From Hericium rajendrae (taxonomy: Eukaryota > Basidiomycota > Agaricomycetes > Russulales > Hericiaceae), in NCBI GenBank assembly GCA_033439255.1, contig CM065886.1:682001-746000 (forward strand): a DNA stretch of 64,000 nt. The letters run 5' to 3'. Under the pieces are notes generated by a model. It saw only the letters and a program-made list of their open reading frames with translations. It made no database searches and was not told the origin of the DNA. The translations under genes were made by a program, and so were the position numbers. Every line of letters begins with the position of its first letter. The first letter of the stretch is position 1. Below, piece by piece: positions 14,125-42,333 of this stretch.

Positions 14125-14345
14125 AATCTCAGTCTCTCTATTCTCTTAACGAGCTTCGACTTCTCACTCACTTTGCAAGCTTTGATATCACTTCTTAAGG
14201 AAATGGAGGTATGCTCATGGTCACAAACAGATATAAGCTGTGTGACATGTCCTACTCCATCTATGCCTCCAACCTTCAGCTTTGACAATGGAACTCAAGG
14301 GAGGCTCTCGAGTTTCCATGCCACTCACTGCAATGCAGGACTGCA
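14125..14345 (-). repeat. Central palindrome, right arm
   Basis: Inverted copy of 13601-13805. It joins directly to the array of orientation B that begins about 14335. Confidence 0.82.
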
Positions 14346-15110: not shown

Positions 15111-15119
15111 TACCCGCCA

Positions 15120-20588: not shown

Positions 20589-20591
20589 TCA
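20589..20591. repeat. Target-site duplication TCA, right
   Basis: Directly follows the terminal CCCAGTG of the CACTA-type element and matches TCA at 11157-11159. Confidence 0.65.
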
Positions 20592-20904: not shown

Positions 20905-22119
20905 TCATGTGGGCAGTTCTTTGAGGTTTGGAATGGGCGACTCTCTTGGTGATCGTGGTCCAAACAAGCCAGGCGGCGACGGCGGTGGGGTATATGTCAG
21001 TTCTTCGAGGTCCTGAACGGGCGATCTTGGTGATCGTGGTCCAAATAATAAATCTGGCTTCGGCGACAGATGGATACGTTCAGATCTTATATAGCTGGGG
21101 TTCCACCATGTCCCCGCGAGGTCAGGCTGAACGCCATTCTGAGTTGGGACGGGCTGCCGTAGAGCCGATGTATGTAGCAGATCTAGAGGTGATGGCGGTG
21201 GGGTGTATTCAAAATTGGGTTGCCAGGGTGTCTGCGGCCGGCCGACAGACATTTCAAGTTCAAGACCCTTCTGTTCCTGCATAGCTTTGGCGACCGCCGG
21301 AGAGCGCCTGCTTCGATAACGCAATGGCTGTGGGACTCGGCGGGGGTATATGGACGCCCGGGATTCCTGGAACCATGAGGACTGAATATCCCAGAGGAAA
21401 CGTCTCATCAATTGATATACGTACCTCGTTAGGCACAGCCTGGCTTGAAAGATGGGAGAGCCCATCCTGATGGTCTAGATTTGCTCTGTCGATATTTCCA
21501 CGACGGATCTCCAATACGATTTCGTCTTGTTTGTGACGGACCTCCGAAACGTGCTCGTCTACTTTGCGACGAATCTCCAAGACGTGTTCGTCTTGCTTGC
21601 GACTAAATCGCTCCAACCGTTCTCTGATGCGGTGCGATCAGTCCGAAGTTAGCGATGTAGAGTATGCTCAAGGACAAACCCGTGTGCTAATATAAGCAGT
21701 GTATTCATCGCCTCTATCTGCCCCGACAGCCTCCGGCGCAAATCAATCAACTCCTCTCTTGTGAACAAGCACCACCCAAGCCTGAGCCAAGCATCCTTCC
21801 CAAAACTCCAACCGCTGCCGAATCCTCTCCTCCAAGCTGTTATCTTGCCATCCATCTGTCGCAGCAGATCGAGACACCTTCGAATGGCGTGATGCAGCCC
21901 ATTCTTGACGGGTTCCGGGAGCCTGTTAGGTCCTTCGATGGACAGCTCGTACTGCACGCTCTCAACAGTGCAGATGACGGAGTCAAGTTCGAGGATGAGA
22001 TCGAGATACTCTGCGGAGGAGCCCTTGCTGTCGCACAGTGCTCGGATCACCGTCTTCGCGATTTGGAGCAACGAGACGATGTCGCCTAGGGAACCAACTG
22101 TAAACGCGAAGACGGGCAT
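20905..22119 (-). CDS. Adaptor-type protein with YTPPPSP tail, left duplicate
   Basis: Three exons: 22119-21680 (440 nt), 21623-21425 (199 nt) and 21327-20905 (423 nt), giving 353 residues with all joins in frame. The N-terminal domain (MPVFAFTVGSLGDIVSLLQ; FTREELIDLRRRLSGQIEAM) is the one shared with the genes at 429-1912 and 41226-42333. Exon 2 encodes a charged helix with three near-repeats of the type KQDEHVLEIRRK, likely a short coiled coil. Exon 3 has no ubiquitin-like domain; instead it has a proline-rich tail with FEYTPPPSPLDLL and LTYTPPPSPPGLF and two FGPRSPR motifs. The TP/SP motifs suit proline-directed kinases or WW/SH3 binding, which is inference. It lies in the left arm of an inverted duplication and looks intact. 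Molecular function is unknown. Confidence 0.75.
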
Positions 22120-23224
22120 GATAGGGCGCGGGCACAGGCGCAGACAAAGGAAGGAGAGGGAACATACAAGATATATGTTCAGCGGGCTCCCACCTGAGCA
22201 GCCTCGTGTTGCACAGGTCCGTGCGTCTATCCTGAGTTTACACCGCTTCTATCACAGCCTCATCAGAATGAATATTTATGTACATTAAAAGCTTACCATG
22301 GTTCCACATCACTACATATCGTCTGGAGCAATATGTTCAGAAGGTTACCTCGAGCTGGATAATATGGTCGCGCGGGGATCCCGGAAGAACGTCTCATTCG
22401 TACATGATGCATGTTCCGGGCTTCAAGCGCACAGCAATCAGAAAGGCCTATGAAATAGCGTTAACCAAGCCTAGACGCAGTCCTGAGCATCTTGACTTCG
22501 ACATAATCGATCGATCGACTAGCTTGAGCGCTTTGCGCAAGCCCTGTCCAAACTCGACGCAGATAAGTCAGATAGAATACGCCCCGTTCCGGGATCTCAC
22601 TCACCGAATTTAATGATTGATGAGGCGCAAGATTCTCTACTCAGAACTCATATCCGTTTGCACCAGCAACCAGCAACTAGCAATCGACCTTGGACTTGAC
22701 TTTGCCACCTACATATTGCCGAAGACACCATGCGAGTTACAGCTAAGTGAGGGTGATTTGAGCGCAGCATCAACGAACTCGACATCGATTCTATGGGAGA
22801 GAATCGGTTTCGAATAGGTCGTCCTACTTTTGTTCTATGCCGACCTGACTCTGTAGTATCTCTCGGCTTGATCAACCCCTTGAGAAGCACTCGAGAGTAG
22901 TCATGAATTTCTCTCAAAGGGCAACTTGCATCGGATGGGTGCGGCGAGAGGAGGCATAAAAAGCAATAACTCATATATGACCGCTTGTGTGGCCATATGC
23001 CTAGATAAAAACATGATCAATATCTCAGAATCCCAGGCGACGGCTCGAAGAGTACTTACCGTGCTGTCCGAAAATATGCTATAACAAAGTTATTGCATTG
23101 CAAGCCAAACGCCAGATCCCATTAAGCTACCTGAGCAAACTGTGCCGCGGGTCGGCCCTTCGGAAACTGCATGCTGAGAAAAGTGACATAAGCAATTGAA
23201 TGAAACCTGAACGTACAGCATCGC

Positions 23225-23520
23225 CTTAAGGACATGAATCTGCGCAATCGAGCTTGTCTGCCTCACAGGACAAAAAGTCATCACCACCGCATCGCCGCGC
23301 AATAACGCGCTCGTCAAACGCTACGACGCGTCCGTCGCCGTAGGCTATCACACGCCCAATGCCGTCGAGAAGGTCATTGTCGCGTCCTGACAGCGCGGCA
23401 TCGAATACGCGTTTGACGCGATCTCGGGAGGCGACAGCTACATGCTCGCGGCGAAGGCCCTGCGGCCAGCGGGACCGCGGAAGGTCGCGCTCGTCCTTGC
23501 CGTCGAAAGGAACAGGTTTA
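23225..23520 (+). pseudogene. Decayed zinc-type alcohol dehydrogenase / quinone oxidoreductase fragment
   Basis: The plus strand encodes KVITTASPRNNALVKRYDAS, then GYHTPNAVEKVIVAS, and after a stop GIEYAFDAISGGDSYMLAAK and ALRPAGPRKVALVL. This order matches the NAD(P)-binding half of medium-chain zinc-type dehydrogenases/enoyl reductases of fungi. At least one in-frame stop (after IVAS) and the lack of the catalytic half make it a host-gene remnant. The counterpart in the right duplication arm is more damaged. Confidence 0.62.
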
Positions 23521-23905
23521 ACGTGAGCATAGATTACTACCACAGCGCGCCTGCGTCGTTCGTGGGCCTGAGTCTGGATGTAGGAGATCGGTATTATCCT
23601 ATGAGTAGACTGGATGGTTAACGGGGACGTCGACTCACCTTGGCGTGCATCCGACGGCGCAATCGCCGTAATTTGGACCTTGGCTGTGAGCCCTATGAGC
23701 TCGTGGAGGACTGTATAACGGACGCGCCATACACCGCAAGGTCTGGAGACTTGAGCGGTATCCAGGACGGATTGGGGTCTATGAAGAGTAGAAAGGTAAG
23801 TCTGAGCTTCAAGAAGATTGTGTGACGAGCTGGAGATGAGTTCGCGAACGTCCACAGGTTAGAACGAAACTTGTCGACAGGATCGCAGACTCTAGCCTGA
23901 TGCAT
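23226..23905 (-). CDS. Hypothetical spliced frame antisense to the dehydrogenase remnant
   Basis: An ATG at 23905 follows a TATA-like element (cctataaata on the minus strand near 24030) that is conserved in both duplication arms. The reading MHQARVCDPVD can be joined over a possible 41-nt intron to SSHNLLEAQTYLSTLHRPQ and SVLDTAQVSRPCGVWR, then over a second GT-AG intron into a frame that runs antisense to the dehydrogenase remnant. The SSHNL...QSVLDTAQ part is recognisable in the right arm (about 39610-39720), where the frame then breaks. I recognise no family. The first intron is shorter than usual, so this may also be a remnant. Confidence 0.25.
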
Positions 23906-25120
23906 GCTCGATAGCTTGTCTGGCCGCCAAATTATTATAATGTTGAGCGATTTGTTGCAAGAATAATTTGTCGCTCTGCTGGCCTCAGAAGATAGACAGA
24001 TCTTGTGCTGGTATAGTTGAGAGTATTTATAGGCAATATGTAGGCTGATGAAAGCGGACCGTGAGGGAGATGGAGGAAGGTGTCAACGTTTTGTCTTCGG
24101 GCTCTCCTGGTATATTCTCGAGAGGTAACCAGAGGTAACCACGGTCCGGGCCGGGCCGAATTTCTAGACCGCGTTCAACTGAATCCTTCGTCTCGAATCT
24201 TTCTCTCGTGCACGCCTTGCAACGCATCCTCTTTTTCTTCATTGGAACCGATATCGGACGAGCTACCTTCTCTTCATAACAGTTAACAGTATAGTCACTT
24301 CCGTCTGCGCAGTCACGTCGCACAGCAACGGCGACACTAAACATGCCACTTATGCCACTCCGACGCATATCCCCAATTGCCAGCACATCCCGCATTCATA
24401 GGCACACCAAGAACCAATGATAACAACTCAGAACCAGCAGCTCCGCTGCTGCATGGATCATGGCGCTCCGGGAGCCTGTCGACGTCAGTTTGGAGCCGGC
24501 AACGTTTTCGTTTTGGCTTGCGCCCCTGCCCTGCCCTCCCCGGACTGCATGGTTCAAGCGATGGATGATTGAGTTCGTTCGTCGGCAGCGTGGGCTACGA
24601 TTGACGTTTGCCTGCAGGTGCGCCGTACTATCATCCGTCCGAGTCCGCATTTTGTGTCTGCGGCCGTCGTGGATGAACGCGCCGTTTGGGCAAGGCGATA
24701 TTTATAGACCTCAGTGCCTGGCTCCGATGAATATGCAGCTGCAGATCGTGCTTGCCTGCCGGCACGCAGGCCCACCTATCCGCGTCGACGCTTTCGCACC
24801 AGACCTTTCGCCATGCCGGCAGCGGTCGGTCGCGCGCGCGCTCCGGGGAGGGCACGGTAAGCAAGGCGGTGCTCGGTGTTCATAGATCGTCGCCGTGCCT
24901 GGCTTCAAGCGGCATGCAGAATGTGGTTGCCTGCAGGTGCGCGAGTTCCCGTGTTCTTCTGACTATTTTTTGCCTTCTAGATCGTTGTGCTGTGGCCGGG
25001 ATTCATATGGACCCGCCCACACCCGCCCCGTTCATTCATCTCGTGCGCGGATGAGGAGGTGCGCTGCTTATCCGGACGAAACTGCCGCTAAGTTAGCTCT
25101 TCTAGATCATTGTGATTATT

Positions 25121-28100
25121 TATAAACGTGCGTCGCGTGGTATTCCGTTGCCTCCGCGTGGGCATTGTGGGGCAGAGCTCGGATCAGCGTTTCTGGGCCG
25201 TTATTAAGGATCTAGACTGCCAGCGAGGCCGTCATCGACCGTCATCCTGCAGTCCGTGCGTCATCCGCTTGTTCTGCTGGTCATGATATGTTCATGGTGC
25301 TCCAGTATCGAAATGAAAGGAAGCGAAGACAATGCCATATCGTGGATTAGGTACCTTCCATTCAGTCATGTGTTGTTCATGGATTGCTTAATCAGACCGA
25401 AATAAAATCTTGACGCCTTTCATGGGGCAGATGAGGACTTGTCAGTGAATGCTGATGTTTCCGTGCAGTTCAGCTGGTGTTGGCGATCAAGGTGTGCATG
25501 GTATGTAGAGAGCTCTTACAATATCCTCTCCTGAATGTCCTCGGCATCTTATTCTTGCTGTGCAAGCGGTACTCACCCTGCTGGGACGATCTTGCGCTAA
25601 CGACACATACAGATGCAATCCGTATCGTGATAATCATAGTATGAGGGGCTGTTCGCTCGATTCTCTTCCATCCTTCTTGTCGCCCCTCTAGCAGGCGAAG
25701 TTTCTGAATATGACCGACTGCCAAGGTTTGAGACTTCCATTGAAGCTTCCTTCAGCACAATAGCGAACAACGAGCCGCCTCACATGGACGGAAGTCATTC
25801 TCCGCTGCACTCGTGGCGCGGGCCAATGACTCGATGTGGGTTTACTGGTTCCATGTCCATCATCGGCATAGTGCTGGCAAAGAACATGGTCATCAGACCG
25901 GCCATGCACTCTTCGAGCCCTGCGAAAGCGGCAGACTTGCTTCCTTGATCCCATCGTGTGATCAGACATGACCTGCTCCCAGGCGTCTCCCGACCAGCTC
26001 GCTACCGCCGCGCGCACGCTGGCTCACGAGGGATGCCCTTCCGGGCGCAGCGTCGTGTGAGCATCCCAGATGTGGTGTCGCATTTTCCGGGCGGAACGCT
26101 TCTTTGTTTCGCGCGTATGTCATCGTACTGCAGGCGACTACCTATGTACGCTTCGGGCATGCTCCATTTGACAAAGCACGAACTCAATTCCAGCACTGCC
26201 ACACACTGCGCGCCTGCTGCGTTCTCCACTGTGCCAACACCGATGCGTAGCACTGCGTCAGCGATGATAAAGCGCACGCGGAAAGTTCAGCCTGTTGTAT
26301 GAATGGGTGGTGTCTCGGGCCAGCCTGATCATCATCTGGGCGCATTCAATCTTCAGCACAGCCGATGCCTGCAGGCCTGGATGAAACAGATCTGGTCCGC
26401 GGGCGGATGCGAAAAGCATGGTCGGGGATCTTAGGAAGGTATCCGTGGTGCATTGATGGAGGCGAAGCGCTGTTACCGGATTCGGCCCATCCAGATCGCT
26501 CGGCTTTGTCTTTCTTCTTTGCCTTCTTGTCTCTCTTCCGACGCTCTCCTATATAATAATGTCTCCCGCCGTGCCATTTGCTACGTTTTCTCCCCCCTTA
26601 TTCCTCAGAGCAACCCGTTCACCCCCAGCGTCAGCGCCCCGAATCGTGTGACATGGCCACTGCCGTTTCTTGCGTACCATCCTCCGCCCATAGTAGGGCC
26701 GCACCACCACCGCCGCTCGCTGTCTGCGAGAACCGCGGTCAGTTCGCGTTCGCGCAAATACAGTGCGACGTATGTCTTGTTCAACGTGGGTCACTATTTC
26801 ATCTCGCTATTGGATGCATACTGACTGCCAGCAGTGTCACAGGCAGATGTCGCCAACTGCTCATCACCGCTCACTGCCATTGAGGCTAAGGTCTTCCGTC
26901 ACGAATTCATCACCATCTTCCGCTACTCCCATCCCGCACTTATCCACCCAAATGACTTCCGGCTACTAGAGCTCGTGGAAGATAGACATCTGCTGCACGA
27001 GGAGGAGAAGGAGACGGTGTTCCTGTCACGGGAGATGATGGGGCGGTTACAGCAGCTGACGAGGCGGCAGCACTCAATACCCAGTCCGACCTCGGCCTCG
27101 CGATTCCATCATGGCAGTCGCATGCATCGACGACGGTCGTGACCCAGACCCAGTTTTTTTTTTGTTTGATTCCGCTTTCTGACTGGAACGATCGCTTCCT
27201 TTTGTCATTGTACATTATCAGGGTATACTACACTACACATGCGTGCGTTGGCCGTGTCTCCGCTCATCATGCAGTATTAGAGTCTTCACAGCGCTCCAAC
27301 TCGAATTCTGCGAGCCGAAGCTAATTACTCTTTTGTCACCTGATCTCGATGCTGCATCAGCCGAGTCGAGGGGAGGTGAAAAAGGTTCCTCGCATACTCC
27401 GATCAGCACGAGTCCAGAACGGACGTAGAGCGGTTCATGCTGAAACGCCGACGGTCCAGGTCAAATTCTTCCCACCTCGCCGGCCGACGGCATCCGGCTT
27501 CTCAAGACAGCGCGCCCAGGTGAGCAAGTTTGTACATTTCATGTCTTCGCATGGCTTCCACTTCTCTGAGAGAAACTTCGTACAGCCAATCTCATCAGGC
27601 TTATTGCGCTCTGGGTGCGGCCAGCGCAGAGCTAGAGCGCGGCGCGCTGCAGCTTTGTGGCGCCGTCGCGCTTCGCACTTGGTATGTACTCCACCGCTGC
27701 GTCCTAGACAACTCGCCGCTGACTTGCGAAGTTCTTCGAATACACACGGCAATGAGCTGATTTTGCCTTGTGGACCGCTACAGTGGTGAGCTTTCTCGCG
27801 CTTTTATGGAATTGATGTAGTCGTCGTGTCATGAATGCTAGGATCTCCGGTCCTGCTCGCATCTTCACCAAGGCGACCCACCGGGCTGGAGTTATGTCCA
27901 CCTGTCTCCCTGTTGACAATTTCCGATCTCCCGCAGGCAGACCTTGCGAAACGGTTATGAAAGTCGATCTCTGATGCTGCAATCGGTCGTTATGATGTTA
28001 CGTACGCCGCAGGATTTCACTTTCGCAGCCTCAGGCTTTGCATTCATCCACCCTTTCTCTTCCTACGCATTTTGTGAAACCTCATCTCGGGCTTTGCCCT

Positions 28101-28636
28101 CGCTAGCAGGTTCTTTACCCAGGCTCATTTGGTCGGGTTGCCGCCGAACACCTTCGCAGATCAAATTCGGACCATCGGGTCGCGAGCATGAGTTGGTGTG
28201 AGCCTCCATTCCGCAGCAACCTAAATGTACCTGAGTATGTTCTCCCGTCGATGGCTTCTATTTCTGAAGTAAGTATTCAGTAATGCTCTCAGTCGGCTTC
28301 AGGGTTTCTCATGCCAGCAGGACCCAGGTGTACAAGTTTGCTTGGTATCTTCTCATGGCCTTGCTTCTGAAGGAGGACCTTCGCGCGGCCGATCGAACCA
28401 GGTACATTGCGCTGTAGACACGTTCGCGCCGCCGCAGAGCGAGAAGTGTCGCGCGTTGGCTTTGTGGCGACATCTATTCTGGTTTGGTCTTCTTCAGCCA
28501 GCCGTACTTGCAATATCCTAGCCTTCAACTGAGAGGCTTGACGGAGGGGATCTGACGCTGTGTCACCGTGTGTCCCCATGTCCGCCGCGCCACCTTCAAT
28601 CGACCGCAGGATCTCACCCCACGAACCTCTGACCTT
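25121..28636. other. 3.5-kb stretch without a supported gene
   Basis: I could not recognise a gene. A few short frames look slightly protein-like: minus-strand 26277-26002 (ADAVLRIGVGTVENAAGAQC) and plus-strand 26881-27142 (KVFRHEFITIFRYSHPALI, ending basic). None has recognised relatives or convincing splice partners. Two diverged direct copies of a segment of about 150-200 bp lie at about 27485-27660 and 28289-28450, sharing aggtg.acaagtttg and atggctt.c.cttct.g.g.. The right end is the Plavaka insertion point. Confidence 0.4.
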
Positions 28637-28668
28637 TGTCGGAGAAACTGGATCGACATTAAAATCCC
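28637..28668 (+). repeat. Plavaka left terminal inverted repeat
   Basis: TGTCGGAGAAACTGGATCG followed by ACATTAAAA. Matches the inverse of 37534-37503 with a few substitutions and one 1-bp indel. Confidence 0.6.
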
Positions 28669-29068
28669 TGACGTAAACAATGTCCTTATAACCGAGATTG
28701 TAAGATCATCACGATCTCTTGCCCGAGATTATAAGATCCTTTAAACCGCCAGCTTGTGTAGATTAGATATCGGAGAAGATTATAATCCTCGGATCATCTT
28801 TTAATGAAATTGAAACGTCATTAGTATGGCAGGCGCCTCGTTGCAATCTACATCAGAATGCTCTGATATCTCAGCGTGGAAGTTTGCAGGCTTCATCGTG
28901 GAAGTTTGCAGGCTTCATCGTGGTCGCTGCTCACCCCTGCACCCACGCCTTCTTCCCAGCGCCCTGCACCTCTTCCCCCCCGCCCTTGGTATAGTCCATT
29001 TCACGCCTGTCATCTATGTATCCTCTGCTGATATATTTTGTTTGAATCCTCAACAGACAGATTCAGAT

Positions 29069-32000
29069 ATGCCGAAGTACGCGTCCCCGAGCAAGAAGAA
29101 AGGATCAAAAAATTCGAGCGGCAGCTCGATCCAGAGAAAACCTAAACAAAGTCCTTGCTCGGTATGCGGCAGGCTAGTCTCACCTCAGGGTAAGGCTGCA
29201 CATGAAAGGTCCTGCGCAGAGAAGCGCGAGCGGCTGAAGGCCGAGAGAGAGTACGAGGAGAAGCTGCTGAAGGAAATGGCGGATGGTAATGAATTTTTCA
29301 TTTGGCGTCGAACGGCATAACTGATCATTTGACGTTCTCAGCTGCGGAGCCTATGCGCTCTGAATCAGCGCAACCACCCGTACCGGGGCCGTCTTCATCT
29401 GCAAATCCCGGGCCTTTTCCTGTCCTGCAGCCCCCTGATTTCGGTGCGTATAATTCAGCGCTGACTTGAACTAAAAATTAAATTTCTTTCCCCTTGAAGA
29501 TATGATAACAGCGGAGGTGCTCTCTGAAGGACCTGTCGCAGGCAACACGGAGGTCGTGGATCCACCCGAACACCCCGGCGTGCTCGTGGACGATATTCGT
29601 GCCACGTATCATCCACACAGTGGCAAGGCGCCGGAGACTAAGCATTTCGAGGAGTATGGCCGGCAATATGAAGATGCCAAGACGTCAATACCTTACGAGA
29701 AGGAGCCTTGGAGGCCCTTCTTCCCATCCCGTCAAGACTTTTCATTTGCCGAGGTCGCCCTCGATGGTTCGCTCAATGAAGAGCAGTGTGAACGCCTCAT
29801 CAACATAATCCGTACCTGCGCACAAGGCAAAGATACTTTCAACGTGAAGAATTTCACAGATCTCAAGGCGATGTGGGAACGCGCCTCCGAATGTCTCACT
29901 GCGGTAAGATAGCCACATTATCACGTGTTAGTTATTCACTCACGTTTCGAAGTTGTAGATGCAGAAAAAAGTCATTTCCGTTCCCTACCGTGACGAGCAG
30001 CGCGAGTACAACGTGTATTATCGACCACTGTGGGACTGGGCCACAGACTTACTGCGGGACCCTCTACTTGCCCTGCATTTCGTTTGGGATGCCCAGAAGC
30101 TCTTTAAATTTGACGGGAAGGCTTTTGTTCGGTTCTACGACGAGCCGTGGACAGCGAATGACTTTTGGGATATACAAGTACGCCTTATATCACATGTATT
30201 GTCATTTGTAGTAGTTCTCTAATTTATACATTATCTGTGCACATTTCAGTCGAAGCTTCCAGAAGACGGAAAACCGCTTTGCTTCATTCTCTATGCTGAC
30301 AAGTCAAAGCTCTCGTCATTCGGAAAAGAGATGGGCTACCCGGTTGTCGCCCGGTGCGCAAATCTCCCTGTCGAAATCCGAAATGGAAGCAGCCTTGGTG
30401 GCGGTCGCGCCGTCGGTTGGTTGCCGGTTGTAAGTCCTATTCCACATCTCAGGTAAGATGAAACTGATTTTATCGACAGATTCATGAGGAAAAATCGGAG
30501 CAAGGGAAGCCCGAATGGCCGAACTTCAAACGAGTTGTCTGGCATGAAGCGTTCTACCAACTACTCGAGTCAATAACAGATCTGTCCAAGATTGGGTACA
30601 CATTTCGCTTTCCTGATGGCACTTCCTATCGACTCTTCCCATGTATAATTATCTTGTCTGTGGACTTCGAAGAGCAGTAGGTTTTCCTTATTTTGGTTAC
30701 AAGACACAATAATAGTAATGACTTCGAACTTATTTAGATGCATCATGGCACTCACTCGGGGCTTTCAGAGCAAGCGCCCATGCCCGATCTGTTATGTACA
30801 GTCCAAGGACCTTGCTGACCTTTCTAAACCGCCCAATCTGCGCACCGCGGCGCAATCAAAGAAAGCTGTAAACGACGCACGGGCGATGGAACGTGCAAAG
30901 GACGCTGAGCAGCATCTTAAGACCTTTGGTCTGCGCAATGTCAACGTAAGTAATGTTCTTCTTACGACCACTATCTCGCTGCTGATCGTTCTGCTTTGCG
31001 GCGGCGGTAGAACGTGTTCTGGACCGTCGCGAATTCCGACCCTCATCATGCACTTAGCTTCGATCGTCTCCACGCATATAATGGTGGCCTGTTCGAAGAC
31101 CACCTCTGGGTCACATTCAAAGCATTACTCGATAGCATCGATAAAACGTTGCTATCAACGTTTGAGAAACAGTACGTCATGATCACCGTGAGAGCCGTAT
31201 TTACTTGATATATCTCATCCAATACAGGGCGGACCTCATTCCAACCTGGAGTGGTCTGAATCACTTCAATAACATCGCGTCGATCTCGTTCTCTGATGGC
31301 GGAAAGTATGAAGATATGGCGAAGGTATGTGGGCGAGATACTTACGCTGTGCCTGTCACCTGAATGCCTTTCTCAGGTCACGGTCTTCGCAGCTTATAAC
31401 CTCATCAAGCGGAGAAGCGATTCTCCTTCCTGGGCCCTCCTGCGCTGTATAAGGAGCTTTACCTTATTGGATACTTACATGGCCTTCGAGATACACACAG
31501 ATCAGACGATTGCTGCTGGCCGTCAGGAGCTGAAAAAATTTGGTGAATTGATCCAGGTCTGTACTAGTTTAACTCGATATAACGGAAGTTTTCTAATTAA
31601 CGACCCATTAGGAATACGTACGCCTTACGCCGGACGATGATAAGTCGTGGGACTTCCTGAAGATGCACTGGCATCAACATTCATTCGATAACGTAGAAGA
31701 GAAAGGCGTGAATCGGAACTACAACACAAAACCGAACGAGAAGCTTCATGGTCCTCTCCGTACGGCGTACGTACGTCTAACCAACAAGAAAGACGTGGCC
31801 AAACAGGTACTGCATTGTTCTTTGTTACCTGCTCAGCCATTCAACGTTCTAACTCTTTGTCAATCTCACAGATTCTACGAAATAATCACCAACAGTTCGT
31901 AGCAACATACATCAGAAGCCGTATCCAGTACTCGGAACAACAAGAAAAGCTCGAAGCTGAGCGACTCGCAGAGATAGGGGCACCTGAGGCCCAAGTACGC

Positions 32001-32725
32001 GAAGCGAAGAAGTCAAGATCTCGCCGATTCTCGGCTGAGAACGTGGTACTTGGCTCACAGAAGGCCTTGTGCTCGTTTGAAGCATTTGAAGCGACGGCCG
32101 CCTTGAAGAATGATGAGGCATTTCCCAACTTCCGCAAGCGCTTAGGGCTGTGGCTTACGCGCAATCTGGAGAACTACGGTATTCCTTTGCCCGATGGCAA
32201 GGACGTAGTCTTCCTCAAGTCCGACAAGGTACGTGCCAACCATGCAAATTGAATTCGTCTTGTGTCAACTCAGTCTTCATATAGATCCAGGAGTATCAGT
32301 TTCTCAAGGTCACGTACGAGTCTATGATCGATTGGAGAGCCAAGACGGACTATTTGCGCTGTAGTCCAAAGTTCCAAGGCGCCCCCCGCTATGACTGCGT
32401 TATCGTCGACACCGTGCAAGGCAATATCTTCGCAAGATTAATCTGTGTCTTTACTTGCCAAGTTGGCGACACGAAATACCCTTTAGCGCTAATGCATCCC
32501 TATGATGCGTCGACAGGTCCGCTCAGTCAGAAGGACGAAGAACTGGGCATATGTCGAGTCCGCGCAAAGCCTCGAAAGTCTGCAGAGTTCTTCTTCGTAT
32601 GGTCCATCATTCGTGGAGCACTTCTTGTAGAAGTGAAGAAGGACTTAGAATACTGTGTCCTTGATGTCGTGGACACGGATATGCTACTTCGGGTACAAAG
32701 GATTTGTGAGTCTCGATCTCGTTGA
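29069..32725 (+). CDS. Plavaka transposase
   Basis: Thirteen exons can be joined with GT-AG introns of 50-72 nt and no frame break; exons begin near 29069, 29342, 29500, 29959, 30250, 30480, 30738, 31011, 31228, 31377, 31612, 31872 and 32285. The N-terminus is basic and holds a zinc knuckle (CSVCGRLVSPQGKAAHERSC). The central region matches Plavaka transposases as I remember them: FVRFYDEPWTANDFWDIQ, KPLCFILYADKSKLSSFG, FPCIIILSVDFEEQCIMAL, RGFQSKRPCPICYVQ, then HALSFDRLHAYNGGLFEDHL, and GVNRNYNTKPNEKLHGPLR near the end of the core. These hold the acidic residues expected of an RNase H-like catalytic core (the D of LYADK among them). The role is DNA cut-and-paste in the nucleus. An in-frame ATG at 28826 would add 81 residues; I prefer 29069 because the basic region starts there. 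The stop is at 32723-32725, or a few codons earlier if a last intron is spliced. Confidence 0.88.
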
Positions 32726-33049
32726 TTTTTATTACATACCTTTCTTCTGTGTTCCTACGGCTGCAGGATAGTTTTGTATTGCTTCATTATCAACTCCTTG
32801 CCTCACCCTTTCACATTCAATTCGAACTTACTAGGTAGTCGAGATCTACAAAAGGAGAGTAAGTGCATTCTGCCTTCCCTACTCTTTCCGCAGGCATTTT
32901 GCTGGCCATGTTTTCATTGACAGCGCGTGCCTCCCCTTCCCTCTTACAAGGTCCAGAAGATTTTGCGCTGCCAACGGCCCACAACACGGCTTCTTCGGTA
33001 CATACGCTCGTACGCTCTCCCCAACCTTTTCCTTATTTGGCATCCAGGC

Positions 33050-33830
33050 GTCGAGCACGACCGATCCCTTCCATGGCCACGAGCAAGCCAGGCTGTGTGC
33101 TCGCTTTGTTTCCCATCTCTTCGCCTGTCCGGAGACCCAGTCCATCCCCCCTATGTTGTCGACTTCCCCCCCGACACCGACACCGCGACTGGACCACTCC
33201 ATTGCCTATGCCCTCCACCGAACGTGACTCCACTCATCAGTCACCTTCGCTGCGCTGTACCTTCTGCAGCGCCTCAAGGCTCGGTTCCCTGCGGCAAAGG
33301 GCTCCTCCGGACACCGATTATTTATTTCAGCGTTCATGATCGCATCCAAGATCAACTGTGACGACACGTACTCGAACAAGTCCTGGTGCATCGTCGGCTA
33401 GGGGATGTTCGCTCTGCGCGACATCAACCAGATGGAGCGCGAGATGTGCAGCTACTTGGAGTGGCAGCTCAACGTCGAGCCCACGACGCTGCGCGATTTC
33501 GAGACGCAGGTTCGCCACGACTTCAGTGGCCCGGGCCCGTACCCTCCCGTCAACCTCCCCCAGTCTGTTCCCGCTCCCTTCCCGCACCCGAACGCGAATG
33601 CTTCGACCTCGATACCCATGTTCGGCCCCAGCCGCACCTCGCCGCCCAAGCCTAGTGCCCCATCGATATCGCCCAACTCGTCCATCACATACTCCATGGC
33701 GACGTCCCTCCCGATACCGCCTCCTCATCGCGCTCGACATCCACATCGCCTGCGTTGACAGCCTCTTCCTCGACGCTGCCCGACACCCAGCCTAACTATG
33801 ACATCAAACTCAGCCACTTGGTAAGCTCAG
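33050..33830 (+). pseudogene. Captured Pho85-type cyclin gene fragment, decayed
   Basis: The plus strand encodes EQARLCARFVSHLFACPETQ, then HSIAYALHRT, LHSSVTFAALYLLQRLKARF, GSSGHRLFISAFMIASKIN, CDDTYSNKSWCIVG, GMFALRDINQMEREMCSYLE and WQLNVEPTTLRDFETQVRHD. This is the cyclin box of fungal Pho80/Pcl-like cyclins, partners of the Pho85/CDK5-type kinase. Two in-frame stops are seen, TGA at 33225-33227 (where the family usually has Arg) and TAG at 33399-33401 (usually Gln). Both fit single C-to-T changes. The frame shifts once near 33700. It lies inside the Plavaka element between the transposase and the accessory gene, in the same orientation as both, so it looks like a captured host piece. Confidence 0.82.
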
Positions 33831-33884
33831 GTATGTAAGCGACTGGTCTCCATTGTGTACGTGCGGATGCTAAGTGTCTTGTGC

Positions 33885-34560
33885 AGCTTTGCCAGCACGT
33901 GTCTGGAGGACCTGGTGGACGAAATCCCGAGCTTGTGCAAGGAGCAGCACAGATGCAGATACCTGCAGAAGAAGCTGGAAGAGGATGTCCCTCAGCACCG
34001 CGACATGATCTTCCGCGAGACGTTCGGACTTGATGACAGGTCGGTACCCTCTACGGTGCACAGCTACGGTCAGCTGACAGGCAGAACAGATCCTTTCGGC
34101 AACTACCTCTGCCAGAAGCTGTTGGAGTACTCCACCAATGAGCAGCGCAACGTGATCTGCAAATCCGTCGCGCAAGATTCGGTGAACATTTCGCTGAATA
34201 TGCATGGCACTCGCGCTGTTCAGAAGATGATAGACTTCCTATCCACCCGCAGACAGGCACGTCAGATTCATGGTTCTTTTTGCCTTTGGCGCTCACTGGG
34301 TGGCCATTGATCATGAATACCATGGCCAGATTCATTCTATCATTGCCGCGCTCAGCCTTCATGTTGTAGTGCTCATCACGCACCCTCACGCTGCTGCATC
34401 TTGCAGCGCTGCATTGACCATGCTTCGGCCTCGTCAAGACCTTATGTTGCTCGCCGTGTCCGCTAGCATCCAATATTGGGTATATCATTTGAGTTGCTGG
34501 ATCAGTACGTGCAGGTACGTCAGTCTTCGCGCTGCGCGCTCCGCTCGTCAGGTCTGATTC
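33885..34560 (+). pseudogene. Captured Puf4-like Pumilio RNA-binding gene fragment, decayed
   Basis: Recognisable Pumilio repeat pieces appear in order: LEDLVDEIPSLCKEQHRCRY and LQKKLEEDVPQHRDMIFRET; DPFGNYLCQKLLEYSTNEQR and NVICKSVAQDSVNISLNMHG and TRAVQKMIDFLSTRRQ; IHSIIAALSLHVVVLI; and, in another frame, CCILQRCIDHAS. They correspond to several successive Puf repeats of Puf4-like proteins, which bind mRNA 3' ends. Sequences between the pieces look like retained introns (for example before IHSII, ending ccatggccag), so the capture was at DNA level. Part of the repeat domain is missing between VVVLI and CCILQ, and the frame is broken. This host-gene remnant lies inside the Plavaka element. 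Confidence 0.82.
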
Positions 34561-35017
34561 AGAAGCTTCTGATCACTTAATTTACTTTGTCTACAGTGGT
34601 GCACCACGACGTTGCAATGGTTTGATACATGTGCATCAGCGACACATAGTGCTTATGACTACGCTGCCTGAGGACATGTGGCCAATGCATAACGAGAAGT
34701 GTAGGCATGCCGCACTTGATTGGCATGTTTCATTAGGTGTTCTTTTCCATTTCGGTGAATGCCTTAGCCACGAGATCAATCCTCCGGCGGCCAACACAGT
34801 GAAAATGGGGCAGCCTTAACAGGTAGACGGGGATCGAAGGACACTGATCGTAGACAAGCGATGAGGTGCGCAATGTTTTTCTACATATCTGTGACATGCT
34901 TCTTAACACGATGACAAGCGCCTCCTATCTCTATGGTCCAGATATAAACCTTCGAATTTAGACGATGGCCGTAGGGCATTTCCTCATCCTGTTTCCTGCA
35001 GCTATCCCTATCCTCAT

Positions 35018-36891
35018 ATGGCAGGCTCAGATTTATACGACTCGGAGACCGGCGACGACAGTCATGCCATCGGCGCCGCTGCTGCAGAGGCCTCTGAGGA
35101 CGAAGAGCAGGACGAAGAGGAGCCGGTCGACCCCATCATCGAGCTCCTTAGTTTGCAGGCCATCGAGACTCCGCGGCCAGAGGCGACGAAGGCAGAAGTG
35201 GAGAAAGTGAGTCCTGTTGTTGCTCTTTCCTGATGATCGTTGCCTTACTCTTTCCATAGGCCCTGCAGCTCACTCAGCTTCGTCTGCAGAGTTATAAACA
35301 ACTGCTGCAGCAGCTGCAGATCGATCACAACGATCTAGAGGCAAGGTTCAAGGTGCTTGAAAAAGCGAACTCGAAGGCAGCCCGTGGGCTCAAAGGCAAG
35401 CTCAGCGAGATGGATAGAGAGATACGTGATGCCGGAAGTAAGTACTGTTTGGTCGTCGAGCCTTGGATCAACACCGCTCTCTTCAAGAACCCCGCACCGG
35501 CCGTCGCACCTATCAGCTGCAGTCACTTCAACAACGAACAGTCCGCGCGTCTTGGTCAGATCGCAGAAATATATGAATTCATGCCGGTGAAGCTTCACGA
35601 TCCGATGCAAAATCGTCCAGGTTTTGGCTCTACGGTTTGTATTTTCGACGCCTCTCAACTTGCCTGAGCTCACCTGTTCCTTCACTTGCAGTTTATCGAT
35701 GCACTTGGCGACCAACGATCGTCAACTATCTATCGCCTTCGCACAAATGCCGGCGAAATCCTTGACTTGCCAAGTACGATGCTCAGCTCCGCGAAGGCCC
35801 GCTCGAAGTCTGAGAGGTTGATTGAACTCCTGGGGCGTACTACCCTTCAGCATGAGACCGACGACGAGGATAAGCATTTTGACTACGCTATCTTGCCTCC
35901 TGTTCTCTTCCCGCCGCATCCCTCTGGAAAACATGATAGGGAGCGCGACTTACCTCTAGTTTTCAAAGCACCGGTGCTTTCCAAGGTGCAGTCTTTCGTT
36001 TCTTTTTGTGTACATCCCACTAACGTATTCATTTTGCCTCTATAGCTTCTGCGATGTGCGCTTTTTGGCGCGAAGACGACCCAAGGGCGGCCGGACAAAG
36101 CGAAGTCTAAGCAGACCAAGGGCGAATCATGGGAGATCCCCCAGACAACGCCTGGGATGATTGCCTTTGCCGCTACCACTGTGAGTGATCTACTGTAGCT
36201 ATACATCCGATTTGAACTTACAGTTGTATAATCCAAGGCACGCTTTCTCTGCACACACGACACGGAATTCACTGTCATTGGCCGCCACTCCAAGATCAAT
36301 TACGCCCAAGACTTCATGTTCTACAAACGGATGATCATCGATGGATTGGCTGGCAACATGAAAACATTCACCGCCCTAATCGACTGGTTCGACGCAGAGC
36401 TCCGCCTGCGCGGGAGGTCTCATGAATCAGGTGCCTCGTTGGGTACGGACGAGGCCCAGGGAGTACGGACCACATCTGAGTACGAGAGCATTATGGCCGG
36501 CTTGCGGCGCGTCGCAATCAGCGACGCGAACATGCCGACGGTTGACGAGGAGGCTCCCGCAGAGTCTACGCCGAGTGCAGGCGATGAGCAGCCAGCTCCG
36601 GAAATGCAACGCGCCATGCCCCCGCCTCCCCCCGCAGCTTCCGGAACCCGAGGCAGACGCGCTGGCCCTATCACCGCTGAGACAGCCAACGCTATGGCGG
36701 CACTCGAGGCATTGGCGCACGTCACTGAAGAATCACCCAGTGTAGAGGCTCTGAAACGCGCTCCCAAGCAACGCAAGACAAAGAAGGTTCCCGCGGACAA
36801 GGTCGCTCCAGCAGAGAAGGCCGCTCCGGCGAAGAAACCTGCTGGAGCTGCAACCGCAACTCGACGGTCTACCCGCGGTGGAGGCAATTAG
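35018..36891 (+). CDS. Plavaka-associated accessory protein, coiled-coil with basic tail
   Basis: Five exons: 35018-35205, 35260-35634, 35692-35985, 36046-36180 and 36238-36891, all joining in frame. The protein has an acidic N-terminus (ASEDEEQDEEEP), a predicted coiled coil (about residues 60-125, ALQLTQLRLQSYKQLLQQLQ onward), a conserved middle and a basic, Ala/Pro/Lys-rich C-terminus ending RRSTRGGGN. The middle has motifs I remember from a large, uncharacterised Agaricomycete family: KYCLVVEPWI, LHDPMQNRPGFGSTF, ALGDQRSSTIYRLR, LRCALFGAKT, TTPGMIAFAATTARFL, DTEFTVIGRHSKINY and FMFYKRMII. Function is unknown. Its place inside the transposon suggests an element-borne role, perhaps binding subterminal repeats like TnpA of plant CACTA elements; that is inference. 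Confidence 0.78.
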
Positions 36892-37146
36892 ATGTCGGGG
36901 CCTGGCATCACAGTCCATACGAGTTTACCATACACGCAGCTTTCTTCACGATTTCCCTCACAGTATCTTCTTACTATGTAGCTCCATGAGCGGACTTAAC
37001 ATTCGCGTAGTTCCTTGTAGACCTGGCATCGCGACTCGCTCCTCTCGCCTTGTGCTGACCATTACAATCGAGTGGAATCATTATAATTACATTTTAATGT
37101 CGCGAATGCCATATGATATATTACATATATACACCATTACATGCCT

Positions 37147-37235
37147 GCGTGGCCGAGGGGGATGTGCGTGAGCAACGTAGGTAGATTATAATGTCCTAAG
37201 GTGAGGGGTTCGACTCAGGGAGCTGCCAGACAAAA
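37147..37235 (+). repeat. tRNA-derived, SINE-like fragment
   Basis: An A-box-like TGGCCGAGGGG (10 of 11 to consensus) at about 37150 and a B-box-like GGTTCGACTCA (10 of 11) at about 37207 are spaced as in Pol III promoters, and a short A-rich run follows at 37230-37250. The acceptor and T stems do not pair, so it is not a working tRNA gene. It lies in the right subterminal part of the Plavaka element. Confidence 0.38.
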
Positions 37236-37379
37236 AAAACCGGGAAAAAAGGCGGGGTCGGGGATTGAGAGATTGCCGGTCGATTAAAATGACCACATAT
37301 TTCTTTTCGTCCCAGAATCTCGCGGCCAGATAACAATTTAGCGAGATCTATCTTTGACGATTACAACCCACATTGTAAG

Positions 37380-37470
37380 GTAGATTAGAATCTAGACTAC
37401 AATCTCGGCGGTTAGATAACAAGATAGATTATCATCTCGGCAGTCAAGTGTACAATCATTGTAATCTGAG
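37380..37470 (-). repeat. Plavaka right subterminal repeats
   Basis: Copies of CTACAATCTCGG, TATCATCTCGG and GTAATCTGAGG are the inverse of the left subterminal CCGAGATTRTAAG motifs at 28692-28795. Such repeats are the usual binding sites of CACTA-type accessory proteins. Confidence 0.55.
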
Positions 37471-37502
37471 GCTGTACTGTTTTCCCTTCTTTTACATAAA
37501 AT

Positions 37503-37534
37503 GGCCTTTTAATCCCGATCCCATTTTTCCGACA
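37503..37534 (-). repeat. Plavaka right terminal inverted repeat
   Basis: Reads, inverted, TGTCGGAAAAATGGGATCG followed by GGATTAAAA. It matches the left terminus at 28637-28668. Confidence 0.6.
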
Positions 37535-38379
37535 TTGTGCTCGCTAGTGCTTCACTCAGCAGTTGGAAGATTGCATCCTACGCCTTAGGTACCTCTTCGT
37601 CGACTTCGTTAGTCCGCTAGCGACATGCTCATGTTTACGCCGACGGACATCGTCCTCACGCTTGTGAGCACGTTGAACACATTTCACAGTTGTCGTTCTT
37701 TCTGTCCTCTTGACCAGCGCGTCGACGCAGCGTGCGGGCTTTGAGCGACGATATCATAGGTGAGGTTTCTGACGAGTTCTTAGATATTCTGACAGTGTCT
37801 ATGGGTAGAAGTCAATCCAGCAGTGACGACTCGAGGCATCGTCTAAGCGGTCTTGCAGTTTCGTCCCGGATATCCTTAGAAGTCAGTCAGTATGGTATGT
37901 CAATGATACACGGTCAGATCAATCAACGCAACCTTTTTGTCGTCTTATTTGTTTATCTATGTCGAGTTTGAGCAGGCGCGCAAAGATCTCAAGCTCTGGT
38001 CGATCGATCGACGCAGTCGAAGTCGATGCCCAGTGGCTCTATAGCGCCGCTTCACCGGCGTTTCCGATCGTTGAGTAGACTGATGATCATCTTTCAATAC
38101 ATCCAAGTACAATGACGAATGAGTGAATATGCATCGTGCACGAGTAAGACGCTGTATTCCAGCATATCCCTCTGATTTCAACGCCGGAGCTAGCACTCGA
38201 ATGAGATGACACCAGGATCGTGACAAGCAAACACAGATGACGCACCGACTGCAGGATGATGGTCGATGACGGCTTCGCTGGCAGGCTAGAGCCCAATAGT
38301 CCAGAAACGCAAGTCCGGGCTTTGCCCCACAACGCCCATGCGGAGGCAACAGAACGCCATGCGACGCACAGCCTAATAG
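37535..38379. other. Stretch without a supported gene
   Basis: No gene recognised. A block at about 37985-38070 (ggtcgatcgatcgacgcagt, then cgccgcttcaccggcgtttc) resembles 40835-40925 of the right duplication arm in direct orientation, so it looks like a partial third copy of that sequence. Confidence 0.4.
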
Positions 38380-39397
38380 TGATCACAAGGAACTAGAAGA
38401 GCGAGCGACGCATTAAACAGACCTTTTATGCAGAGAAGGAGCGCAGACTCCTCATCCACGCAGGACACTAATGAACGGGGTGAGTGTGGGCGGGCCCATA
38501 TGAATTCCGGCCACAGCATGACGATCTATAAGGCAAAAAAATATTAAAAGATACCTGCAGGCAACCACATTCTGCATGTCAATTGAAGCCAGGCACGGGG
38601 ATGGTCTATGAATACCGAGCATCGCCTTGCATACCGTGCCCTCCCCGGAGCGCGCGCATGTCCGTCCGCTACCGGCATCCTAACCGCGGCGAAGAGTCTA
38701 GAGCGAAAGCGTCGACGGGGATAGGTGGTCCTGGCACCGGGAAACAAATATGCATCGAAGCCAGGCACTGAGGTCAATGAACACAGCCTCGTCCAAAGTG
38801 CGCACGTTCATCCTCGGGAAACGCCAAAGCTCGGACGGAAGATGCGGCGGCCAATGTGCGATCCAGACTAGGCAGGGAAGGGCAGGGGTATGTTGTATAT
38901 GGCGGGACGCAAGCCGAAAGGAAAACGCATCTCGGATTCAAGCAGGTGGGATCACGAGAGGTCCCGGAGCGCTATGATCCGTACAGCAGCGGAACTGCTG
39001 GTTCCGAGTTCTTCTCGTTGGTCCTCCGTGCACCTATGGACGCGAGATATGTTAGCAACTGGAAATATGCATTCGTAGTGGCATAAGCGGCATGTACATT
39101 TAGCGTCGCCGTTGCTGTGCAGCGTGAGCTGCGTACAGCTCGTGCGAGACGAAGCAGGCATTTCGTTTAACCGTTAAAAAGAGATTCGTAGCCCAGGGTT
39201 CAATGAAAGAAAAGAGGACACGCCGGGCATGTACGAGAGATGAGAGGATTTCAGTTGAACGCGGTTAAAAATTCGGCCCGTCCCGGACCGTGGTTACCTC
39301 TGGTTACCTCTCTCAAATATACCAGGAGAGCCCGAAGACAAAACGTTGACACCTCCCCCATCTCCCTCAAGGTCTGCTCTAATCAGCCTACACATTG

Positions 39398-39930
39398 CCT
39401 ATAAATATCATGCTTTATACCAGCGCGAATTCTATCTATCTTCTGAGGCCAGCAGAGCCGCAGATTATTCTTGCAACAAATCGCTCAACATCAATCTGGC
39501 GGCCAGGCAAGCCATCGAGCATGCATCATCAAGCTGGGGTATCTGCGACCCTGTAGACAAGGTTCGTTCCAGACACCTGTAGACGTTGACAAATGTCATC
39601 TTCTACTCGTCGCATAATCTCTATAAGGCTCAGGTTTATCTTTCCGCTCTTTATAAACTCCAATCCGTCCTGGATACCGCTCAAGCCTCCAGGCTTCGCG
39701 GTGAATGGCGCGCTCTTGCAACAGGCTACTCACGAGTTCGTAGAACTTACAGATAAAATCCAAATTGCGGCGATCATGCTGTTAGACGTATGTCGAAGTG
39801 AGCCGACGTTGCGCTCGGTCATCGAATCTACTCACAGGATAATACCTAGTCTCCAACATTCAGGCCCAGGCAGGCACGTTGGGGTAGCAATCCACGTTCA
39901 CGTCAAGTTCAGCGTAAGACCACGCTAGCC
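39398..39930 (+). pseudogene. Remnant of the hypothetical TATA-driven frame, right copy
   Basis: The TATA element (ttgcctataaatatc) and the following ATG region match the left arm. The part corresponding to SSHNLYKAQVYLSALYKLQS and VLDTAQASRLRGEWRA is present, after which the frame differs from the left copy. Family unknown; decayed. Confidence 0.35.
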
Positions 39931-39959
39931 CTAGTCGCTCGCCAGCATCACCGAGCATT

Positions 39960-40390
39960 CGCTACATGGTCTCTTGGGATTCTCACCAATTAAGACTGCC
40001 CATGACTGATATCTCGAGGTTGCTCTCGGTAAAGCTGACTTCTTTGCCCGGAGTTGGCAGCCGGCACTCGACCGTATGGTCGATGTCTTAAGCCTCCGGC
40101 GGGGGCATCATCACGGTGCGCTTCCGCAGACCATCCTTCCGTGGTGCTTTGCTCGCGTGTTACGTGTCCTCCGCATCCGTGATGGTGCCCACGACGTAGT
40201 CAAACCGGCCGTGCCCCGCAGCCGTAACCATCCGTCCTGTGATGTGCGCAGCGCAGCGCGCCGCTGTAATTTATGGCCGCGGCCGCGGACTTTTCGAGAT
40301 CATGGTTGTTCGGCGAAGCGGTCGTGATGATCTTTCATTCCGTGAGCTTCGCAAACTGCATAGATGGCATAGAGTCCTACTACAGCTGCG
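39960..40390 (-). pseudogene. Decayed zinc-type dehydrogenase fragment, right copy
   Basis: On the minus strand a frame with QFAKLTE, a stop, then KIITTASPNNHDLEKSAAAA and FDYVVGTITDAEDT matches the left-arm remnant at 23225-23520 and the NAD(P)-binding part of quinone-oxidoreductase-like dehydrogenases. Frame changes and stops show that it is dead. Confidence 0.55.
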
Positions 40391-40570
40391 TGTCCCGGTC
40401 AGTAAAGCATTCGCTGGAACCAAATCAAGCACTGACACGAGCCGCCCTAGATGAGGATTGGAGCGCGTTGTGCGAGAAGCCTGGAAACGTGTGCAGGCCT
40501 AAGGCGGCGGCGGTGACTGATTGATGCTGAAAATGGGTATTATTCTATATTATCAGCTCCACCAATCAGT

Positions 40571-40748
40571 GGATGACTTTCCGCGGCCTTATTTTTATTC
40601 TATGATATGTTTTGAAGCTCATTTAGATTCAGAGTCCGCTGATTTGTGCGACCTGATTGGATGAAGAGGTCATTTTGGACGTTAGCGAGGCATTTGAAAT
40701 GGCCTCCGGAATATCATACCATAGATTTAAGGCCGCGGAAAGTCATCC
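40571..40748. mobile_element. 178-bp MITE with perfect 21-bp TIRs
   Basis: Both ends read inward GGATGACTTTCCGCGGCCTT plus A, without a mismatch, and AGT is duplicated on both sides (40568-40570 and 40749-40751). The inside is AT-rich and non-coding. A 3-bp duplication would suit a CACTA-type or similar mover, but the parent element is not in the window. Confidence 0.78.
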
Positions 40749-40751
40749 AGT

Positions 40752-41225
40752 AGGTATGGTGGGTGAAACAATCTATTTTGTCTTACATGTCTGCGTCGAA
40801 CTTGACTAGGACCTGTTGTGCACACAGCGCGGAAGACTTGGTCGATCGATTGATAGCGTCGAAGCCCAGATTCTCAGTACGGTGAACGCCGTTTCGCAGG
40901 CTTTTCTGATCGCTGCGCGCCGTAGCGGCCCTGAACGTGCATTATGCGTGGGTTAGACGCCGACTTGTACGATAAGGATCCACCCTGCCAGGTTTCCAGC
41001 CCTACTGAACACCGCTCTAGATAATAGTCATGCAGAAACATGGAAAGCTTTCGATTTACGAAGATATTCTAATGAGGCTATGATAGATCAGCAATACATA
41101 ATGAAGCAGTGAATTCAAGATAGAAGAACGGACCTGTGCAACACGAGGCTGCTCAGGTGAGGGCCGAATAGACTTATATTCTGCAAGCTCCTTCCCCTGT
41201 CCCTGGTTTGCATGCACGCCTCGTC
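40752..41225. promoter_or_regulatory. Upstream region of the right adaptor gene
   Basis: The part nearest the gene (about 41125-41225, cctgtgcaacacgaggctgc) is conserved with the region upstream of the left copy (about 22190-22120), so the promoter was duplicated with the gene. The distal part carries the duplicated tcgatcgattga block. Confidence 0.4.
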
Positions 41226-42333
41226 ATGCCCATCTTTTCGTTCACCGTTGGCTCCCTGGGCGACGTCGTCTCACTTCTCCAAGTTGCGAAGACAGTAACA
41301 CGAGCATTATGCGATAGCAAAGGTTCCTCTGAAGAATACTTTGATCTCATCATCGAACTGGACTCTGTAGTCCGCACCGTTGAGGGTGTGCAGCACGAGC
41401 TGTCCATCGATGGACCCAATAAGCTCCCGCCATCCGTTGAAAATGGGCTGCATCTCGCCATCCAAAGGTGTTGTCATCTTTTGCAGCAAATAGACAAGAA
41501 GATATCTGCGTGGAGAAGAGGGTTCGGCATTGGCTGGACGTTCGGGAAGGACGTTTGGCTTCATCTTGGATGGAGCTTATTCACGAGAGAAGAATTAGAC
41601 GGTCTGTGCCGTAGACTGTCGAGGCAGATAGAGGCAATGAACACACTGCTTATATTAGCACACGGGTTTGTTCTTGGCAATATCTCCCCGTTGATCCCGG
41701 TATGACTGTATTGCATCAGAGAACGGCTGGAGCGGTTCAGTCGCAAGCAGGACGAGCATGCCTTGGAGATACGCCGCAAACACGACGAGTACGCCTCGGA
41801 AATTTGTCACAAGCAAGAAGAAATCAAATCGGAGATCCGTCGCGTCGCGAACGGAATTAGTGGTAGAGGAAATCCCAGGCGTGAAAGCTATGTTTCGAAA
41901 CAAAGTGATCTTACCGAGGTAAGTCCACTTGTCATCGATATACTCTCTCTTAATAAGTTAGCACTGCTTCCAGCAACCCTGGGCGCCCTTCTCTTCTCGC
42001 TTACAGCACGTCGGATTCCCTCTCCCGCGTCCACAACCTTCGCACAATCAGGGGCGCACCTCCACGGAAGCAGACATACCTGCTCGAGGCGAGGCGTCAT
42101 GGCCTAGCGAATGGCAATTTGATACCGATATTGAATACACCCCACCGTCGTCACCTCTGTTAGACACAAGGGCCACACAGCAGCAACGTGGAGGGTTGTG
42201 GGCAACGTGGCAACCCGAACCTAACATCGAATACACCCCACCGCCATCGCCTCTGTTAGATACAAGGACCGAACAGGAGCAGCATGCAGGGTTACGGGCA
42301 ACGTATTTCTTGGCAACCCGAAACTCACTTTGA
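41226..42333 (+). CDS. Adaptor-type protein with YTPPPSP tail, right duplicate
   Basis: Three exons: 41226-41665 (440 nt), 41720-41918 (199 nt) and 42007-42333, giving 321 residues. The first two exons have exactly the lengths of the left copy, and all joins are in frame. The N-terminal domain reads MPIFSFTVGSLGDVVSLLQ and FTREELDGLCRRLSRQIEAM. The middle exon has the charged helix (KQDEHALEIRRKHDEYASE; HKQEEIKSEIRR). The tail has two near-identical modules, DIEYTPPSSPLLDTR and NIEYTPPPSPLLDTR, each followed by a Gln-rich stretch. It lacks the ubiquitin-like domain of the gene at 429-1912. The preserved frame despite divergence from the left copy suggests selection on both. An ATG at 41208 would add six residues; the conserved start is 41226. 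Confidence 0.76.

Follow-up and report, generated by a model that had tools for sequence, protein, structure and literature searches.

The transposon described here, a cut-and-paste element of PlavakaA type in the genome of Hericium rajendrae, very probably took up copied DNA of a cyclin gene and a Puf4-like gene, two host genes that are not related to each other. The copies lie in the spacer that separates the transposase gene of the element from its second gene, which encodes a DUF6698 protein; we put the probability of this reading at roughly 0.85, and the cargo would by now be dead or dying. The element occupies positions 28637-37534 of the window, by which we mean the whole stretch of 64,000 nucleotides that was analysed (C9:682001-746000, in a searched genome of 46.8 Mb on 19 contigs). 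A first-pass annotation of this DNA had placed a cyclin piece and a Pumilio piece side by side inside a Plavaka element, both in the orientation of the transposase. Our alignments confirm this arrangement far beyond chance and correct the limits of the two pieces to 32929-33833 (cyclin) and 33834-34426 (Puf).

The element measures 8,898 bp between its termini, TGTCGGA..TCCGACA. Comparison of the termini, together with a genome-wide pattern search, places the left TIR, TGTCGGAGAAACTGGATCGACATTAAAAT, at 28637-28665 on the plus strand, and the right TIR, an imperfect inverse of it that ends in TCCGACA, lies at 37506-37534 on the minus strand. Directly outside these termini the TSD TT can be read by eye at 28635-28636 and 37535-37536. 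The termini and the 2-bp TSD together enclose the transposase gene, the cargo and the second element gene, which supports the earlier claim that two unrelated host genes were captured. The transposase gene (29069-32725, plus strand) was modelled by eye as 12 open exon stretches and ends with a stop at 32725; the model omits a further short exon, likely near 29340-29445. Joined from the second stretch on, its 874 residues match PF18759 at E 1e-42 (147 bits, with a cut-off of 26.3). The second gene (35018-36891, plus strand) is predicted to encode the DUF6698 protein, with a match to PF20414 at E 8.6e-8 (32.5 bits, with a cut-off of 23.7).

Searching the genome for the pattern TGTCGGAGAAACTGGATCGACATTAAAAT with up to 3 mismatches gave 10 matches, and a reversed control pattern gave 0. 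These matches correspond to both ends of three further copies, on contigs C8, C3 and C19, to the left end of the window element (whose right TIR is too diverged to count in a search with 3 mismatches), and to single ends on C7, C12 and C16. The single match on C7 is part of a 182-bp MITE (L061 91-272, C7:2407990-2408171) without cargo; a reverse-transcriptase-like ORF, an impression gained from its translation, adjoins this MITE. The termini TGTCGGA..TCCGACA are present in 4/4 long copies, and a 2-bp TSD was read by eye in all five elements for which both ends were read: TT in the window, TA, CG and GC in the copies on C8 (L056), C3 (L057) and C19 (L058), respectively, and AG in the MITE. PlavakaA has TGT..ACA termini and 2-bp TSDs, which together with a Plavaka transposase are common to the window element, and its motifs C(2)C and H(3-4)H sit between the second D and the last E (Kojima 2025, PMC12730594). 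The transposase exon translations contain CPIC and HWHQH, both recognized by eye. Judged from its transposase domain, TGT..ACA termini and 2-bp TSD, the element appears to be of PlavakaA type. The four copies that form its clade appear to be divergent members of Plavaka, since none of them was listed when the genome was searched exon by exon for PF18759 (at least 132 matches, from the best 123 of 166 candidates). Among the best 52 of 84 candidates in a search with the clade transposase, other Plavaka elements are 23-28% identical to it.

The cyclin piece (32929-33833, plus strand) is truncated at its 3' end and is 92% identical to its closest relative, on C5 (L009), and 87% identical to a second locus, on C1 (L010). 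When 33050-34560, the stretch on which the capture was first proposed, was compared with the genome it comes from, the cyclin part matched C5 at 93% and C1:3755k at 89% (10/10 candidates scored), and the Puf part matched C1:3850.7k at 85%. Upstream of the piece, at 32726-32928, an extended cyclin homology was no better than controls, its score being reached by 155/200 shuffles. A retained intron (32998-33047, plus strand; GT..CAG, with splice sites placed by eye) is found as the same stretch in L009. A stretch of 146 residues in that relative matches PF00134 (2.5e-11) and PF08613 (4.6e-7), and among solved structures it matches Cyclin-Y alone at E 0.01 (E 0.0041); the gene is thus a cyclin as claimed, while the Pho85 type originally given to it is possible only, in view of the structure match. 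Alignment to L009 and codon counts identify two in-frame nonsense codons on the plus strand, CGA>TGA at 33225-33227 and CAG>TAG at 33399-33401, both of them C-to-T relative to L009. Cyclin-derived fragments also occur elsewhere in the genome, at eight places and as three very short matches. Partial copies are scattered over C13:250965-251271, C2:150k, C2:183k, C15:846k, C18:353k, C2:1408k, C4:1892k and C1:3755k, and one locus on C18 (L014) is an open, diverged cyclin paralog.

The Puf4-like piece (33834-34426, plus strand) contains PUF repeats (PF00806, E 1.4e-19) and has PUF4 as its best solved-structure match (E 7.4e-28), in agreement with its first identification. Its closest relative is a PUF gene on C1 (L011), to which it is 84.8% identical over 33834-34384 and 88.2% identical over 34377-34426; about 156 bp of that gene (L011 4309-4464) are missing from the piece. 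At the downstream end, an extension over 34427-34620 likewise fails to exceed controls, with 28/200 mononucleotide shuffles reaching its score; an alignment made by eye continues to about 34445. The intron-like sequences reported in the Puf piece are indeed retained introns of L011, as is the intron of the cyclin piece relative to L009. The first Puf intron is poorly conserved, and over 34182-34296, a stretch of both exon and intron sequence, 2/115 bases are different in L011. Because introns are kept in both pieces, the source was genomic DNA and not a transcript, and capture at the DNA level is well supported.

The cyclin and Puf blocks abut at 33833/33834, where 0-1 bp is common to both relatives (by eye). 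A second copy of this joint was sought in the same genome and none was found (17/17 candidates scored), so that the window cargo is single copy. A chimeric cyclin-Puf protein was considered and rejected: the cyclin carries two nonsense codons, and a possible splice from CAG/GTATGT to TTGTGCAG breaks the Puf frame (by eye). The search for parent genes that the first-pass annotation had recommended finds the closest relatives of the two pieces on different contigs, C5 and C1, and thus not adjacent within this genome, which indicates that here the element did not form around two resident genes that were already neighbours.

Divergence of the cargo from these relatives is consistent with decay after capture plus an uncertain share that arose before it. 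With L010 as the outgroup, the window branch of the cyclin domain shows 9 synonymous and 6 missense changes along with 2 nonsense changes, the L009 branch has 5 synonymous and 1 missense, and the L010/stem branch 14 and 10; the synonymous share on the window branch (9/17) compares with a neutral expectation of 32% (p 0.06). The Puf exons, compared without polarisation over 297 bases, show 15 synonymous, 10 missense and 0 nonsense differences, one of the missense differences bordering a 2-bp difference in L011 and therefore possibly an artefact. This synonymous excess over neutral decay suggests that some of the differences may already have existed before capture. Synonymous divergence from the relatives is 0.29 for Puf and 0.13 for cyclin (Fisher p 0.035, uncorrected), a difference that makes a single joint capture less than certain, and the two pieces were perhaps captured at two times. 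Over the whole cyclin piece, 32/64 changes assigned to the window branch are C>T/G>A and 17 of these 32 lie at CpG (p 0.028, given that 206/587 C/G sites are in CpG). Methylation decay had been proposed from the nonsense changes, and both of these are C-to-T; by eye only one of them (CGA) is in CpG context. On the L010/stem branch, which belongs to a copy without the TIR, 17/32 such changes are likewise at CpG (L009, 0/7), so that C-to-T decay by methylation is possible, but the support for it is weak and it would not be peculiar to the element. Compared with the window, the two relatives show frame-breaking differences of their own, one base missing within a C run in L009 (C5:749k) and two bases missing in a PUF repeat of L011 (C1:3850.7k). 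These may be either assembly errors or gene damage, and 'parent' here therefore means the closest relative found.

Host DNA fills the same spacer in the other copies of the element. A query with the transposase, its sister copies drawn from the best 52 of 84 candidates, found three other loci that match nearly the whole protein, namely L056, L057 and L058, and a query with the DUF6698 protein found only the four clade transposase loci (10/10 candidates scored). From the transposase stop to the second ATG the spacer measures about 2.3 kb in the window, 2.1 kb in L056 and 1.5-1.6 kb in L057 and L058. The spacer of L056 contains polyubiquitin units (L056 5050-6187; PF00240, E 2e-53) that are about 78% identical, intron included, to a host polyubiquitin gene on C1. 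These units are altered, one carrying a stop codon and one keeping 73/76 residues, and their synonymous distances to the host units fall within the range found among the host units. In L057 (4684-5507) and L058 (5118-5976) the spacer holds short, tandem, degenerate repeats around the ubiquitin junction LRLRGG-MQIFVK, which match the host polyubiquitin gene over 24-40 bp (best E 3.8e-11 and 1.7e-9) and are weak at the protein level (best E 0.7 and 0.05). The latter two copies are 80-81% identical along the element; since they are so alike at different sites, on different contigs and with different TSDs, the filled spacer travels with the element, and we count them once, as one line. No ubiquitin trace was found in the window spacer (best E 2.5). 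Inspection of other Plavaka copies for cargo, as first suggested, thus revealed polyubiquitin-derived DNA in the same spacer of three sisters, and the spacer is filled in 4/4 long copies found, with at least two different contents; none of the four has an empty spacer, and the state before capture is thus unseen. A second polyubiquitin array was observed at C14:305973-307455 (L060), where 3/4 units read have substitutions in common relative to ubiquitin, N25A and Q31T among them.

These spacers raise the possibility, to which we would give somewhat less than even odds, that the transposase and the DUF6698 gene flank an exchangeable slot that genomic copies of unrelated host genes have refilled repeatedly. 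The polyubiquitin of one line and the cyclin plus Puf of another would then reflect a continuing gene-capture habit of a CACTA-related fungal transposon, an idea that we advance just as tentatively.

Several other origins of the cargo have to be weighed against capture by the element. The main rival is that a second mobile element, for example a Helitron, fused cyclin and Puf and subsequently entered the Plavaka spacer. Helitrons with extra genes are known from basidiomycetes (PMC4289320), and the distribution of the cyclin fragments also favours this origin: when 8 mismatches were allowed, the 29-base TIR was not found in the cyclin loci L009-L017, each of about 9-10 kb. Nor does any cyclin fragment coincide with one of the 10 TIR matches of the genome-wide search, the only one of the two to cover the C13 fragments, so that something else also spread cyclin DNA. 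However, a Helitron accident does not predict that three sisters would hold unrelated host DNA at the corresponding place, and such an element has left no further cyclin-Puf joint among the 17 candidates scored; we consider it improbable. A different question is whether the source genes belonged to another lineage, with horizontal transfer, or were diverged paralogs, rather than being L009 and L011. The synonymous divergence of Puf, its poorly conserved first intron and the synonymous excess in cyclin would all be expected in that case, but nothing closer than L009 and L011 was found in the same genome, and the near identity to L011 at 34182-34296 is difficult to reconcile with a distant source, which leaves this alternative unlikely, albeit one to keep in mind.

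The cargo might instead be a retained accessory gene, the spacer housing genes useful to the transposon in the way that TET/JBP genes are housed in other Plavaka. Cyclin, Puf and ubiquitin (3/3) do share the transposase orientation and a fixed place, although three of three in one orientation would arise by chance 1 time in 8. Of the TET/JBP-like matches below the cut-off, 6/8 are found at 6-8 kb from the transposase of another Plavaka, whereas of those above it 0/38 have a PF18759 match within 10 kb. The well-kept ubiquitin unit of L056 (73/76 residues) and the synonymous excess in cyclin and Puf could be taken as signs of retention, but the nonsense codons in cyclin, the spliced joint that is out of frame for Puf (by eye), the altered ubiquitin units of L056, one of them with a stop, and the degenerate short repeats of L057 and L058 all argue for decay, and we regard a retained function as quite improbable. 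That the genes were simply resident and the boundaries of the element wrongly drawn found no support and is scarcely credible, given matching termini and a TSD on both sides, a second element gene beyond the cargo, and the same architecture in three other copies.

If, as we favour, the element itself copied the two host genes, the route was most probably interrupted gap repair or template switching following excision, a mechanism proposed for plant elements. Such a route fits the copying of DNA, the chimeric cargo, its near-blunt joint and the use of a single tolerated site: a broken element end would prime on unrelated loci, and because filler would be harmless in the spacer, captures at that place would survive.

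Gene capture by fungal TIR transposons, Plavaka included, is already in print, and the cyclin-Puf and polyubiquitin cargo extends a known phenomenon. The first-pass annotation knew of no description of such capture for Plavaka, but one exists, as TET/JBP genes have been captured in several superfamilies including Plavaka, with all TET-bearing Plavaka belonging to PlavakaB; the same source also describes CACTA as related to Plavaka (PMC12730594). That paper treats TET/JBP cargo, with 0 occurrences of cyclin or ubiquitin in its main text, and no report of cyclin, Puf or ubiquitin in Plavaka was found in titles and abstract openings, a scope that mostly left aside subscription journals. The transduplicated histone H3 of hAT elements in Dothideomycetes (PMC3538342, PMC6710886) is likewise host sequence between fungal TIRs, but in another superfamily and with one gene amplified to many copies, whereas here two genes are fused; in the hAT of Pseudocercospora fijiensis the captured sequence is without introns, which the window element keeps. 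Plant Pack-TYPE elements (PMC8903248) and the soybean CACTA element Tgm-Express (PMC1947982), also carry host-gene fragments in TIR elements, with the difference that here, in each of the four long copies found, the cargo has the same position within the element. Pack-TYPE elements are, moreover, non-autonomous (PMC8903248), whereas the window copy has a predicted transposase gene with open exon stretches. The Pack-type label first attached to the element is therefore loose, apt as to host-gene capture and not as to non-autonomy, and 'transduplication' fits better. This term denotes a cellular gene or fragment between TIRs that is replicated through the genome with the element (PMC3538342); here host fragments between TIRs are present, the window cargo is single copy, and the ubiquitin-derived spacer of L057 and L058 has been copied with the element. 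In the Pleurotus Helitrons with cap genes, also basidiomycete elements, the extra genes likewise lie downstream of the element's own gene, but these elements are rolling-circle and lack TIRs, and their cap genes are reported to have no copies outside Helitrons (PMC4289320). Our observations would add PlavakaA to the TIR transposons for which DNA-level host-gene capture is known, those of plants and the hAT elements of fungi. They show one element in which two unrelated genes are fused, and cargo at one place in every long copy read; a survey of this spacer in other fungi would open the mechanism of capture to a direct test.

Among other Plavaka in the genome, no similar cargo was seen by position: within 10 kb of the at least 132 PF18759 matches there were 0/8 cyclin, 0/10 PUF and 0/21 ubiquitin matches (positions only). 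The six sub-cut-off TET/JBP-like matches near Plavaka transposases (C2:33965, C2:3866436, C4:1122998, C4:348987, C9:549710 and C14:67218) are 6/6 in divergent orientation, resembling known TET-bearing Plavaka. Within the window, imperfect inverted repeats at 21501-25287 and 38217-41842, in three pieces that are 71-75% identical, flank the element at a distance and include similar ORFs (21655-22248, minus strand; 41172-41702, plus strand), neither of which has a Pfam match at E 0.01; an ORF at 1391-2008 (minus strand) looks alike. Large arrays of a 23-bp tandem repeat occur at 12195-16212 and 19178-19552, in both orientations, and 11159-12538 and 19225-20589 form an inverted pair with 96% identity.
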